A stretch of DNA of 64,000 bases from an uncultured bacterium. Its GTDB lineage: Bacteria; Planctomycetota; GCA-002687715. The notes below the pieces were generated by a model that searched no databases, was not told the DNA's origin, and saw only the letters and a list, made by a program, of their open reading frames with translations. The stretch lies in NCBI GenBank assembly GCA_902826835.1, contig CADEGH010000006.1, positions 165,711 to 229,710 of the forward strand. Direction: 5' to 3'. The position numbers were made by a program, and so were the translations under genes. Below are positions 48,299 through 53,267 of this stretch, in pieces (within the stretch, counting starts at the first letter, position 1; the number at the start of each line of letters is the position of its first letter).

Positions 48299-51200
48299 TC
48301 AGTTCCCGATCCGGATGGACCGGATGTGAACGGCGTCGGGCAGTGACCCCGGATCGAGGCGGTAGCGACGGAGCTTGGGTGATCCTTCGGTACCGGTGCG
48401 GACCTGCCAGTCCACGACCGATCCGTCGCCGATCAAGCTCCTGGGTTCTTCGCGCTCCGGTGAAAACACCGAATCGGCGCTGAAGTTCCAAAAGACTTGG
48501 GCCGGCAATTCATGGCGCAGGTCGACGGCAAGTCCGGACAGCTCGATCCGAAGCACGGTTTGGTTGGTGGACAGTTCCCAAGGTGACGAGACGATTTGCG
48601 GATCCGGATCCGTGGCAATGGCCCAGACCGAGCCGTCGGGCTCCACTTCCGGTGGCAAGAGGCCAAGTTCGAAACTCCAGTGCTGCAGCAGCGACACTCC
48701 CGAATACGTGCCATTCTCCGGCAGCGGCAGAGGGGAGCCTGAATCATAGACCGCGACCGCGAGTCGGCACTCCGGGTTGGATTCCCACGTGACACCCGCG
48801 GGGGAACGCCCCAGCCGCGGCACCACTTCGCAGATCCCCTGCACCGGACCGACTTGCATGCGGAAGTGAATCCACACTTCCTCGTCAGGCATGAGCCCGC
48901 GCGGTGGCAAGGCCTCCGGAAAGACATTCACATCGGGGGATGAGATTCCGTTACGTTTCCAGTCCAATTGCAGTTCAGGTGCTTCCGGCTGATATCCCCC
49001 GGGGATCCAGGTCGGCCCGGTATTCCGCACCCGCAAAGAAAGCAACCAGTCTTGCCCCGCCCTCACCGGTCCAATCATCCAGTGCCTCAGTTTCATCGGG
49101 CGCAGACGGTGCTGCATGGTGCTGCCGGAGGCCGGGCGTGGGGCATCTGTGGACGCAAACGGCCGGAGCGGCTTCCCTTGGGCGCGATCATCGGCCCATC
49201 CGGCCATGGCCGCAAACTCGGATTGCGGCAGCAATTGACGCAATCCATCGAGATGGGCGCGGGCGGCCTCGAACTCGTTGGCTCGCCATTGGGCCCAGGC
49301 TGCTTTCAAACTTTGGCCGGAGTGGAAGATGGAGGGTGCGTCCGGCCTTGATCGAGTCTCCGCGATCAACCGCTGGACGGCATCCAACCGACTTCCGTCC
49401 GATCGCGCCAACACCCAGAGGTAAACGGGGCCGATCAGGGACCAGTCGAAATTCGCGCTGGCACGGAGTAGCGCCACAGTCACCCCCAGGCTCAAGGACT
49501 TCTGTCTCGCGAGAGCGATCAGGGACGGAACCACCTCGACCGGTTGGCGTGCTTCCACGGCCTGAAGTGCGGCGAGAAGCGCACCTTCGTCCAAGCGCGC
49601 CGCGACCAGGTCGCTCACTAGCACCGGGATGCCCCGCTCGTCTCCCAACCGCAGGAGTGCACTTGCCGCCCGGAATGCCAGACGGCGATCCTGGGACTCG
49701 AGGGTGGAAAGAAGAAGACTCTGCCCGCGATCGTCCCCCAGATGCGCCAGGAGTTCCGCGGCCCGTCTCGCTAAGGGTGGCGGAGCATCGAGGAGTCGGG
49801 CGAGATCGCCGCGATAGAGTTCGAGGTTGGCAACGTGGCCGGCTCGTGATTGACGATCCAACACCAGGAGTGCGCTTGCGATCAGTCCGTACGACAGCTC
49901 ACTGCGCAGGGCGGAATCCACGGCGGCGCGAGGGAAGTGGTCCGAAACTTGGGCGAGACCTCTCAACAAGAGGCCCGCTAAGGCGGGATGTTCGGTCGGA
50001 TCCGCCAGACGTTCTATGAGGAGTTCATCCAGGCCCGGCACGCGGCGTTCGAGGGCAACACGAATGAGAGTCGCACGGGCCTCGAGACCCTGGGTTGCGG
50101 CCAGCGAGTCTCGCAAATCCGTGATGGGCGACTCCTCGGAGTTGGCAGAAGCTCCCTGACCATGAATCGAGGCCTGTGCGAGCGACCGCAACTGAGCCAC
50201 CTGGCCCGGGTGATCGAGTACGACGTTGTGCGCCTCCGCGGGATCGCTAGCGAGATCGAACAACTCCAAGATTTCCTCGCGGTCGAAGTGCAGTTTCCAA
50301 TTGGCAAGTCGCACCGCCACTTGGTCCGGGTTGACACGACCACCGGGCTCGGGAGTTGACGGAAGTTCGGTCACCGCCAAAGGCAGCCGACCCTGCCCCG
50401 GATCGTCCAGAAGGAGGTCCACGAGGCTCTCCCCCTGCACCCGAGGATCCGCTTCCAACCCCAAGAGGTCGAGGACGGTGGCGTAAATGTCGACGTTTTC
50501 GACGGGTATCGCCACTCGATGGCCTTCCAAGCCGGGAACAAAGATCAGCAAGGGCACGTGAACCTGGTGTTCGTGGAGCGACGCGCCGTGGTGATCGATC
50601 CGATGGTCTCCGAGCCCCTCTCCATGGTCACCATTCACGATGATGAGGGTGCGATCCGCGAGGCCGGAATCTCGGAGGTGTTGAACCATCCTTCCGATCG
50701 CAGCATCCGCCAGGGCGATCTCGCTGTCGTAGCGATCTTGGACGCCGGGACCGAAGTCGTGCTCGGGGTTCCTCGTGTAGGGGGCATGCGGGTCCATCAG
50801 GTGGAGCCACAGAAAGAACTTTTCGCGTTGGACCTTCGAAAGCCAAGCCTGCGCGAGGGCCACTTGTGCCGGCGCCTCAAGGGGCGTGGTCAGGCTGCGT
50901 TTCGGATTCACCTCCGAAAAGCCCTCGGTCATGATTTCATAGATCGGCTGCGACAGAGAACCCATGGGGATGGCCGGCACGCTGGCCGTCCGCCAGCCGG
51001 CATTGCTGAGGCGTGCCGCCAGCGTGGGAGGCAAATCGGGCTTCGCCAGTCCCCTCATCCGAGCGAAGAGAGGCGTCTTCGAAGGGTAGACGCCGTGGAA
51101 CATCGACTGGAAGGAAAAATGGGTGATCGGATTCTGCGACCACGCTGATTCGAAGACGGTGCTGTCTCGGCCCAACCGAGCGAGGTGAGGCGTGGTATCC

Positions 51201-52213
51201 CGCCAGTAGCCGTGCAAACTCGTGTGGTCGGCTCGCAGCGTATCGACAGTGATCCAAAGGAGATTCCAGCCTTCTCGACCCGGCAGCGCTTCCGCGAGGG
51301 AGGCGCGGGCGAGGGCGGCGCAAGTCGAGTGCGCCACGAGACTCGCCACCGGCGCACTCTCCGCCCAGGCTTCGTTCGAACGCGAATTGGACCGCCACTG
51401 TCGATGCCAACGCACCAGAGCGGCGCCGCCGGTGGTCTTTCGCACCGCCGCCGTTCTCGAACCCGCTACGAGCGGCAATTCAAGCAATCCCGCCATCGCG
51501 ATCCCGCCAAGAATCCACACCAAGACTTGCCGACGCGATGAGATTGCCAGGAAGGAACCTAGGGCCAGCCAGGTTGAGGCGGTCAATAGACCGATAGTCG
51601 CGATCAAGGCCAGCTCATGGAGGTAGCGGTAGTTCCAATCGCGGAGCAGATTGGTGTCCGCGTAGTGCAACGTCACCGCTGCGGCGAAGCAAACGGACGT
51701 AAGGGCACCTCGCCGCCAGCGCGAATCCCACCGGGCCCCAAATGGGCCTGCGGCATAGGCGATGCCCAGGATCGTGGCCGTGCCGATCGTGAGGAGGGCC
51801 GGGGCCAGGATTCGGAGAAGCCCGATGTCCGGCCGCTCGCTGACTCCCTGCCCGGAAAGGACCCGCCCGGTGAGGCAGATCGCGGGATAGGCCAAGGCCA
51901 ACCCCGACCCCACAAGCACGACGCGGGCCGGTGCGACCCTGAGAAACGCCAAGAGCCCACGGCTGACTCCCCCGAGCCCGGCCAGTGTGATCCCGAGGAC
52001 AAGACCCACGCTGGCGCACCCAAGAATGAGAAACAGGCCCCCGAGACGATCCGGGTGGGTGCCTCCCGAGCAAAAGAGCAGGTCCCGCGCGTCCCAAACC
52101 CCCAGCGCCAAACCGGCCAGGATCCCGGCTGGCCCGAGCCCCCGGAGCGGCGGACGTTTCCAGCCGCGCTCGACCCGATTCCCCGGACATTCCAATCGCG
52201 ACCCAGATTCCAT
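48299..52213 (-). CDS. Polytopic membrane sulfatase-like hydrolase with HEAT-type repeats
   Basis: A 1304-aa protein; the Met at 52213 precedes the first membrane helix. Residues ~25-260 contain about seven to eight hydrophobic helices. Residues ~320-640 are an alkaline-phosphatase-superfamily domain: LLWITVDTLRADHTSLHGY, a nucleophile region NPITHFSFQSMFHGVYP with Thr rather than the sulfatase Cys, HLMDPHAPYT, and NGDHGEGLGDHRIDHHGAS. HEAT-like repeats follow (~650-960), then a large C-terminal region. Thr at the nucleophile site suggests a phospho- or phosphoglycerol transferase rather than a true sulfatase (inference). It is divergent from the selenoprotein gene. Confidence 0.8.
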   Translation of the reverse strand: MESGSRLECPGNRVERGWKRPPLRGLGPAGILAGLALGVWDARDLLFCSGGTHPDRLGGLFLILGCASVGLVLGITLAGLGGVSRGLLAFLRVAPARVVLVGSGLALAYPAICLTGRVLSGQGVSERPDIGLLRILAPALLTIGTATILGIAYAAGPFGARWDSRWRRGALTSVCFAAAVTLHYADTNLLRDWNYRYLHELALIATIGLLTASTWLALGSFLAISSRRQVLVWILGGIAMAGLLELPLVAGSRTAAVRKTTGGAALVRWHRQWRSNSRSNEAWAESAPVASLVAHSTCAALARASLAEALPGREGWNLLWITVDTLRADHTSLHGYWRDTTPHLARLGRDSTVFESAWSQNPITHFSFQSMFHGVYPSKTPLFARMRGLAKPDLPPTLAARLSNAGWRTASVPAIPMGSLSQPIYEIMTEGFSEVNPKRSLTTPLEAPAQVALAQAWLSKVQREKFFLWLHLMDPHAPYTRNPEHDFGPGVQDRYDSEIALADAAIGRMVQHLRDSGLADRTLIIVNGDHGEGLGDHRIDHHGASLHEHQVHVPLLIFVPGLEGHRVAIPVENVDIYATVLDLLGLEADPRVQGESLVDLLLDDPGQGRLPLAVTELPSTPEPGGRVNPDQVAVRLANWKLHFDREEILELFDLASDPAEAHNVVLDHPGQVAQLRSLAQASIHGQGASANSEESPITDLRDSLAATQGLEARATLIRVALERRVPGLDELLIERLADPTEHPALAGLLLRGLAQVSDHFPRAAVDSALRSELSYGLIASALLVLDRQSRAGHVANLELYRGDLARLLDAPPPLARRAAELLAHLGDDRGQSLLLSTLESQDRRLAFRAASALLRLGDERGIPVLVSDLVAARLDEGALLAALQAVEARQPVEVVPSLIALARQKSLSLGVTVALLRASANFDWSLIGPVYLWVLARSDGSRLDAVQRLIAETRSRPDAPSIFHSGQSLKAAWAQWRANEFEAARAHLDGLRQLLPQSEFAAMAGWADDRAQGKPLRPFASTDAPRPASGSTMQHRLRPMKLRHWMIGPVRAGQDWLLSLRVRNTGPTWIPGGYQPEAPELQLDWKRNGISSPDVNVFPEALPPRGLMPDEEVWIHFRMQVGPVQGICEVVPRLGRSPAGVTWESNPECRLAVAVYDSGSPLPLPENGTYSGVSLLQHWSFELGLLPPEVEPDGSVWAIATDPDPQIVSSPWELSTNQTVLRIELSGLAVDLRHELPAQVFWNFSADSVFSPEREEPRSLIGDGSVVDWQVRTGTEGSPKLRRYRLDPGSLPDAVHIRSIRIGN

Positions 52214-52301: not shown

Positions 52302-53267
52302 ATGCTGCGCATTCTTCCCTCCCTGCTGGTGGCTCTGGCCGCGGCGCTCCCCGCGCAACTCGCGGCCGGAGACCGGCTGAGCCTGCCTGAGCTCGCCGGC
52401 TTTTCGCAGATCAAGGCCAAGTCGCCGAACGACCTCGCCGGACGCGCGGTTCTCTACGAGTTCTTCGCCTTCTGGTGAGGACCGTGCAAAGGTGCCGTGC
52501 CGCACCTGAACGAGCTTCACGAAAAGCTGGCCGGCGAAGGCCTGACGGTCATTGGTGTCACGAGCGAAGGCGAAGGCCCGACGCAAAAGTGGATCGCCGA
52601 CAACGGGGCCAAGTACGGCTACGCCTATGACAAAGGCAGCGCCTTCTCGCGCGCTTGCGGAGTAACGGGCATTCCGAGTTCGGTCTTGGTCGATGCCACC
52701 GGGAAAGTGGTCTATGTGGGGTCACCCGGCGGGATCACCGAGGAAATGGCTCGGGAGGCTGCCAAGGGTGCACTCAAGACGCCGCTCTACGAGTTGCCGA
52801 AGGAATTCGCCAAGGTGAGCTCCTTGGTCGGCAAGGACGACCTCGCGGGTGCGATCAAAGAGGCCCAGGCCCTGGCGGCCAAGCCGAATCTTGCCGACAC
52901 CGCCAATGCCGTCGCCCTGGGGCTCAAGTCCATGGTCGCAGGCACGGTCATGCAGGCGGATGACCTCGGCACCCGCGGCGATTGGCTCGGCGCTCAGCGC
53001 TCCTACGAGCGTGTGATCAAGTCTGCCAAGGGCATGGAGGAAGAGGTCGCCGCCAAGGGCAAGCTCGAAGAGCTGAAAGCCAACGAGGCGGCTATGAAGG
53101 AAATCAAGCTCCAAAAGAGCTTGGAGAAAATCCTGGCCATGCCGAGCACCAAGGCCAAAGACAAAGAGGCCATGCTCGCGGCCCTCACGAGCTTTGCCAC
53201 CAAGAACGACGGCAGCTTCGCGGCCGGGGTTGCCAAGGCCAAGGCCTCGGCGCTGCGAAAGCCCTGA
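52302..53267 (+). CDS. Selenocysteine-containing thioredoxin-like (TlpA/ResA-type) protein
   Basis: A 321-residue protein whose reading frame is continuous from the ATG at 52302 except for TGA at 52476-52478. A signal peptide (residues 1-~22) leads to a thioredoxin fold. The active site reads YEFFAFW-TGA-GPC, i.e. Sec59-Gly-Pro-Cys62 in place of WCGPC, followed by GVTSEGEGPTQKWI and the cis-Pro region GVTGIPSSVLVD. TGA exactly at a redox Cys is the classic selenoprotein signature. A SECIS-like hairpin follows. A helical C-terminal extension (residues ~160-321, rich in Ala and Lys) is not typical of ResA. A conventional caller would start it falsely at 52497. It is predicted to be a periplasmic thiol-disulfide enzyme. 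Confidence 0.88.
52476..52507 (+). promoter_or_regulatory. Sec TGA codon and bacterial SECIS-like hairpin
   Basis: TGA at 52476-52478 is followed by a six-base-pair stem AGGTGC (52490-52495) / GCACCT (52502-52507) with loop CGTGCC. The loop begins 17 bases after the TGA and carries G at its second position, as expected for SelB-recognised bacterial SECIS elements. The catalytic position of the codon makes this much stronger than the egtD case. Confidence 0.75.

Follow-up and report, generated by a model that had tools for sequence, protein, structure and literature searches.

The window, that is, the whole 64,000-nucleotide stretch of planctomycete DNA that was analysed, contains a gene which sequence analysis confirmed as a genuine selenoprotein gene, predicted to encode an exported thioredoxin-like enzyme with a reactive selenocysteine (Sec). 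The decisive evidence is the presence of the Sec machinery in the genome together with the conservation of the in-frame TGA in orthologues. The product is very probably a ResA/TlpA-type thiol-disulfide oxidoreductase that is exported and has a W-U-G-P-C active site, whose nucleophilic first residue would be Sec. The features of the gene, all on the forward strand, are the following:

52302..53267, + strand: selenoprotein gene, 321 aa, ending with a TGA stop; its single internal TGA specifies selenocysteine
52302..52367, + strand: putative signal peptide MLRILPSLLVALAAALPAQLAA, end approximate, from sequence inspection
52404..52766, + strand: thioredoxin-like domain of the redoxin/AhpC-TSA/ResA-TlpA type, about residues 35-155, from Pfam and structure matches
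52476..52478, + strand: in-frame TGA, Sec59 of Trp-Sec-Gly-Pro-Cys, kept as TGA in the orthologues L023, L024 and L025
52485..52487, + strand: resolving Cys62 (TGC), invariant in 24 aligned family members
52490..52507, + strand: bSECIS-like hairpin, AGGUGC / loop CGUGCC / GCACCU, fitting the bSECIS rules
52800..53264, + strand: C-terminal all-helical domain, residues 167-321, eight helices predicted by AlphaFold2 with pLDDT mostly >90

The gene and its annotation

The reading frame starts with ATG and extends over 321 codons (52302-53264; stop codon at 53265-53267), and the TGA of codon 59, in the context FFAFW-U-GPC, is its sole interruption. The first-pass annotation had described this continuous frame with a TGA in place of the first Cys of the active site, and the description was borne out; relatives have either TGA or Cys at this position of WxGPC. 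In the mechanical list of open reading frames the gene is represented by 52497-53267 alone (GTG start, 256 aa); thus, as had been anticipated, standard gene calling would drop both the N-terminus and the active site. The same 256-aa frame is what favours a different reading, with translation truly ending at the TGA or with a sequencing error having produced it in an ordinary Cys gene; the product would then be broken or start at GTG 52497. Chance read-through frames are also numerous in this GC-rich DNA: passage through a TGA is similarly possible in 71 frames of the window, so that an open frame past the TGA is by itself little evidence. The motif W-TGA-GGNCCNTGY is found only once in the window, and among the 71 candidates it is in the selenoprotein gene.

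Divergently oriented from this gene, the reverse strand (48302-52213) encodes a 1304 aa protein with a sulfatase domain followed by HEAT-like repeats, and a PSCyt1 (Planctomycete cytochrome C) protein is also encoded in the window; genes such as the latter point to a host in Planctomycetota. A conserved gene neighbourhood was looked for and not found, the two genes flanking the selenoprotein gene having no match within the 1.5 kb flanks covered, and an Rfam search of the gene region gave no match above cut-off.

Conservation of the TGA codon

Relatives were drawn from 59 related genomes. A TGA is present in the same column in L023 (56% identity), L024 (55%) and L025 (43%); more distant members have either TGA (L028-L035, L039-L044, L048) or Cys (L036-L038, L045-L047). 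The alignment to homologues proposed at first pass, where Cys was expected at residue 59, therefore returned Cys or TGA in that column. In the comparison with L023, the stretch of 36 codons from the leader to the TGA shows differences at 62% of synonymous and 19% of nonsynonymous sites, and the 100 codons after it at 71% and 23%, respectively; dN/dS is 0.22/1.32 upstream of the TGA and 0.28/2.17 for the remainder of the domain. Upstream of the TGA, 77% of synonymous and 20% of nonsynonymous sites differ from L024. The large excess of synonymous change on both sides indicates that both are translated and constrained, and that the TGA was held while most of the free sites changed.

These data bear directly on the possibility of a true stop or a sequencing error, which appears very improbable: the TGA recurs in the same column in orthologues of other genomes, protein-level selection acts on the 36 codons just upstream of it (pN 0.19, pS 0.62), and three other WUGPC genes are present in the same genome. 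Sec insertion at codon 59 is strongly supported by the sequence data.

The active site is nevertheless not constant. Two orthologues from a single genus (L026 and L027, genomes G007 and G009), belonging to the same clade as the window gene, display TTGDQQC at this site, with Sec replaced by Asp and Trp by Gly, while the second Cys and the helical domain are retained; their products are possibly redox-dead, and the occurrence of orthologues with neither Sec nor Cys at the site indicates that not all members of the family have a redox role. On a tree of 26 members at least six changes between Sec and non-Sec are needed, three of them forced by well-supported branches, and the labels on this tree cluster no more than shuffled ones. 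In-frame TAG codons reported in some homologue matches raised the question of a UAG-encoded Sec; this was rejected, since the active-site codon is TGA in L029 and L048 and TGC in L046, and in L046 and L048 the TAG in question is the terminal stop.

Selenocysteine machinery and other selenoproteins of the genome

The genome (6.09 Mb on 94 contigs, completeness 94%) contains a tRNA-Sec with anticodon UCA, scoring 76.2 bits (cut-off 47), a SelA (501 bits; PF03841, E=8.5e-126) and a SelB (344 bits) provided with GTPase and C-terminal winged-helix domains. The selD gene (TIGR00476, E=6.1e-105) lies between selC and selA, and its catalytic site is likewise encoded with an in-frame TGA (GGUAAK). A search for selA, selB, selC and selD had been suggested from the sequence of the window, and all four are there; absence of selB and tRNA-Sec, which had been named as evidence against a selenoprotein, was looked for and both were found.

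TGA encodes Trp or Gly in some lineages. A general reading of TGA as one of these amino acids would also account for a TGA inside the frame, with no selenoprotein involved; it is contradicted by the window gene and selD, both of which have this codon as their terminator, and further by the other in-frame TGAs, which occur at redox sites with Cys in relatives, and by the complete Sec machinery. This explanation is thus extremely improbable, even less credible than a stop or an error, and Sec remains the preferred assignment.

At least eight further selenoprotein candidates are present in this genome besides the window gene. A TGA is found in eight of its 17 AhpC-TSA matches, which with SelD makes at least nine candidates. 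They include an AhpC-type peroxiredoxin (L089, TFVUATE), a BCP-type protein (L090, TPGUTK) and a membrane-linked redoxin (L094, RWUTVC), each with a bSECIS-like hairpin. Another candidate, on contig C53 (L104:1213-2049), is a fusion of an EF-hand protein with an iodothyronine-deiodinase-like domain (PF00837, E=1.4e-23); its deiodinase site carries Sec (GSYTUPPFR), and by eye there is a GGUC-loop hairpin downstream.

The SECIS-like hairpin

The hairpin at 52490-52507 has a 6-bp stem and a 6-nt loop, with values of -8.3 for the bare element and -12.6 with flanks. It was compared with the bSECIS rules taken from PMC13188914, and it fits these published constraints, as a check for a bacterial SECIS element had been advised. 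The distance of the hairpin from the TGA had been misplaced at first pass: the 17 nt given as its start lead to the loop, and the stem begins 11 nt after the UGA. When the same peptide was recoded synonymously 500 times, 53 of the sequences contained some hairpin that fits the rules and 21 one at least as stable; with a chance level of about 10%, the hairpin alone is modest support.

In a larger set of 34 Sec sites, taken from this genome and related ones, 21 fit the bSECIS rules, against 5.2 expected from synonymous recoding, compared with two of eight Cys sites (0.8 expected); in the genome of the window gene all eight scanned Sec sites fit, several with a GGUC loop. The closest orthologues, L023 and L024, fail the strict rule, having a bulged stem with an upper part of 3 bp only; they possess a GGUCA loop at the same place as the hairpin of the window gene. 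Within the family the hairpin is at +17 in some members and at +34, with an AGUU loop, in others. When the +17 hairpin was scored column by column across the family, no excess of pairing was found (58% in Sec members, 50% in Cys members); this comparison is uninformative, because the hairpins occupy different places in different members. A second group of WUGPC proteins, characterized by the motif HERSLV (L011, L012, L013 and related loci), has a strikingly constant SECIS-like hairpin with a GGUC loop 31 nt after the UGA and a stem of 6-8 bp.

In the proposed mechanism, the UGA of codon 59 would be decoded by Sec-tRNA-Sec, delivered by SelB bound to the hairpin just downstream.

Protein structure and proposed function

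Export is suggested by the N-terminus, which by eye consists of a short charged stretch followed by a hydrophobic one; relatives also begin with hydrophobic leaders. The following domain matches Redoxin (PF08534, E=1.1e-17) and AhpC-TSA (PF00578, E=1.8e-15) in Pfam, and in profile searches the ResA, DsbE-like and TlpA structures. It shows the traits that define the ResA/TlpA subtype, namely a thioredoxin fold, a two-residue redox motif at the start of a helix and a Pro in the facing loop; Cys62 and P125 are invariant in the 24 aligned family members. The AlphaFold2 model used was obtained with the alignment of 24 sequences (pLDDT 92.5, pTM 0.85), the single-sequence run being unusable (pLDDT 45.7), and the nearest solved folds to it are the DsbE-like 3gl3 and the ResA 1st9.

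The long C-terminal extension had been pointed out as an unusual Ala/Lys-rich trait. Far from being a low-complexity oddity, it is a predicted helical domain, about 160 residues long, conserved across the family and present in most relatives; its eight helices span residues 167-319 of the model. By sequence it had no match among solved structures, and in Pfam it gave a single weak match to TPR_16 (E=0.02), below the cut-off and insufficient to assign it to the TPR class; a TPR-like arrangement of its helices is a guess. In NCBIfam no model reached its cut-off on the whole protein, and no curated family for the architecture of a redoxin-like plus a helical domain was found in NCBIfam and Pfam.

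A reductase role is most likely, by analogy with what is established for ResA/TlpA proteins. Once exported, the protein would use its Sec59-Cys62 selenol/thiol pair to reduce or exchange disulfides of extracytoplasmic clients, and the helical domain may hold the client or a partner. It is rather unlikely that the selenoprotein is instead mainly a peroxidase or a periplasmic chaperone. PF08534 and PF00578 also cover peroxidases, and the helical domain, retained in orthologues that lost Sec, could hold clients; however, UGPC with an invariant resolving Cys62 is typical of thiol-disulfide oxidoreductases and differs from the TxxU of peroxiredoxins, a TxxU peroxiredoxin is separately present in the genome (L089), and the nearest solved structures are ResA and DsbE-like proteins.

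Relation to known selenoproteins

The catalogue published by Zhang et al. 2026 (PMC13188914) includes UxxC selenoproteins of the Redoxin (PF08534) and thiol-disulfide isomerase-like (cd02966) types. The window protein shares with them a thioredoxin-fold domain of the same Pfam family and Sec as first residue of UxxC; differently from it, the helical C-terminal domain is unmentioned in the catalogue, which gives domain and motif only. The window protein has the domain fold of ResA/TlpA/DsbE proteins (PDB 1st9, 4nmu, 3gl3), with the two-residue redox motif in the same place, and differs from them by Sec in place of the first Cys and by the extra helical domain. NF041054 (ResA-like WAxxUGC motif protein, NCBIfam) also describes a Sec-bearing ResA-like domain and matches partially (E=5.7e-13), but the score of 48.9 bits is below the cut-off of 300 and its motif is UGC, compared with UGPC. 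For Planctomycetes P1 and P2, the portion of PMC4807772 considered names formate and formylmethanofuran dehydrogenases as selenoproteins; these organisms, which we infer to be of the same phylum, likewise have the Sec machinery and several selenoproteins. With both UxxC selenoproteins of PF08534 and planctomycete selenoproteins on record (PMC13188914, PMC4807772), the window gene joins a known kind.

Distribution in the phylum and significance

Of 294 genomes sampled from the phylum, 181 gave a tRNA-Sec and 176 the WUGPC DNA motif, part of the motif matches being due to chance (a reversed-pattern control gave on average about 0.3 per genome). Among genomes of 90% completeness or above, at least two motif matches occur in 50 of 103 with tRNA-Sec, versus nine of 59 without (Fisher p=2e-5). 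A more permissive search recovered tRNA-Sec in only three of 24 motif-bearing negatives; incomplete assemblies and chance motif matches are the likely cause of motifs without tRNA-Sec. An exception to this account is genome G040 (92% complete), which has a convincing in-frame WUGPC gene with a bSECIS-like hairpin (L033) and no tRNA-Sec, even with the more permissive search.

The annotation of the gene is hence corrected, restoring an N-terminus and an active site that standard calling would lose, and many other genomes of the phylum should suffer from this error too, given the frequencies of tRNA-Sec and of the motif reported above. As a tentative and rather speculative extension, the family may be a phylum-wide set of exported proteins, mostly Sec-bearing, in which a ResA-like domain is joined to a novel helical domain that holds clients; such proteins would serve as selenium-dependent folding factors in the periplasm. 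If this were true, the site would have decayed to Asp in one genus with the helical domain kept, implying that this domain has a function of its own. Since the catalytic position varies among Sec, Cys and Asp on a shared scaffold, the family is suited to a direct test of the contribution of Sec in an exported redox enzyme.
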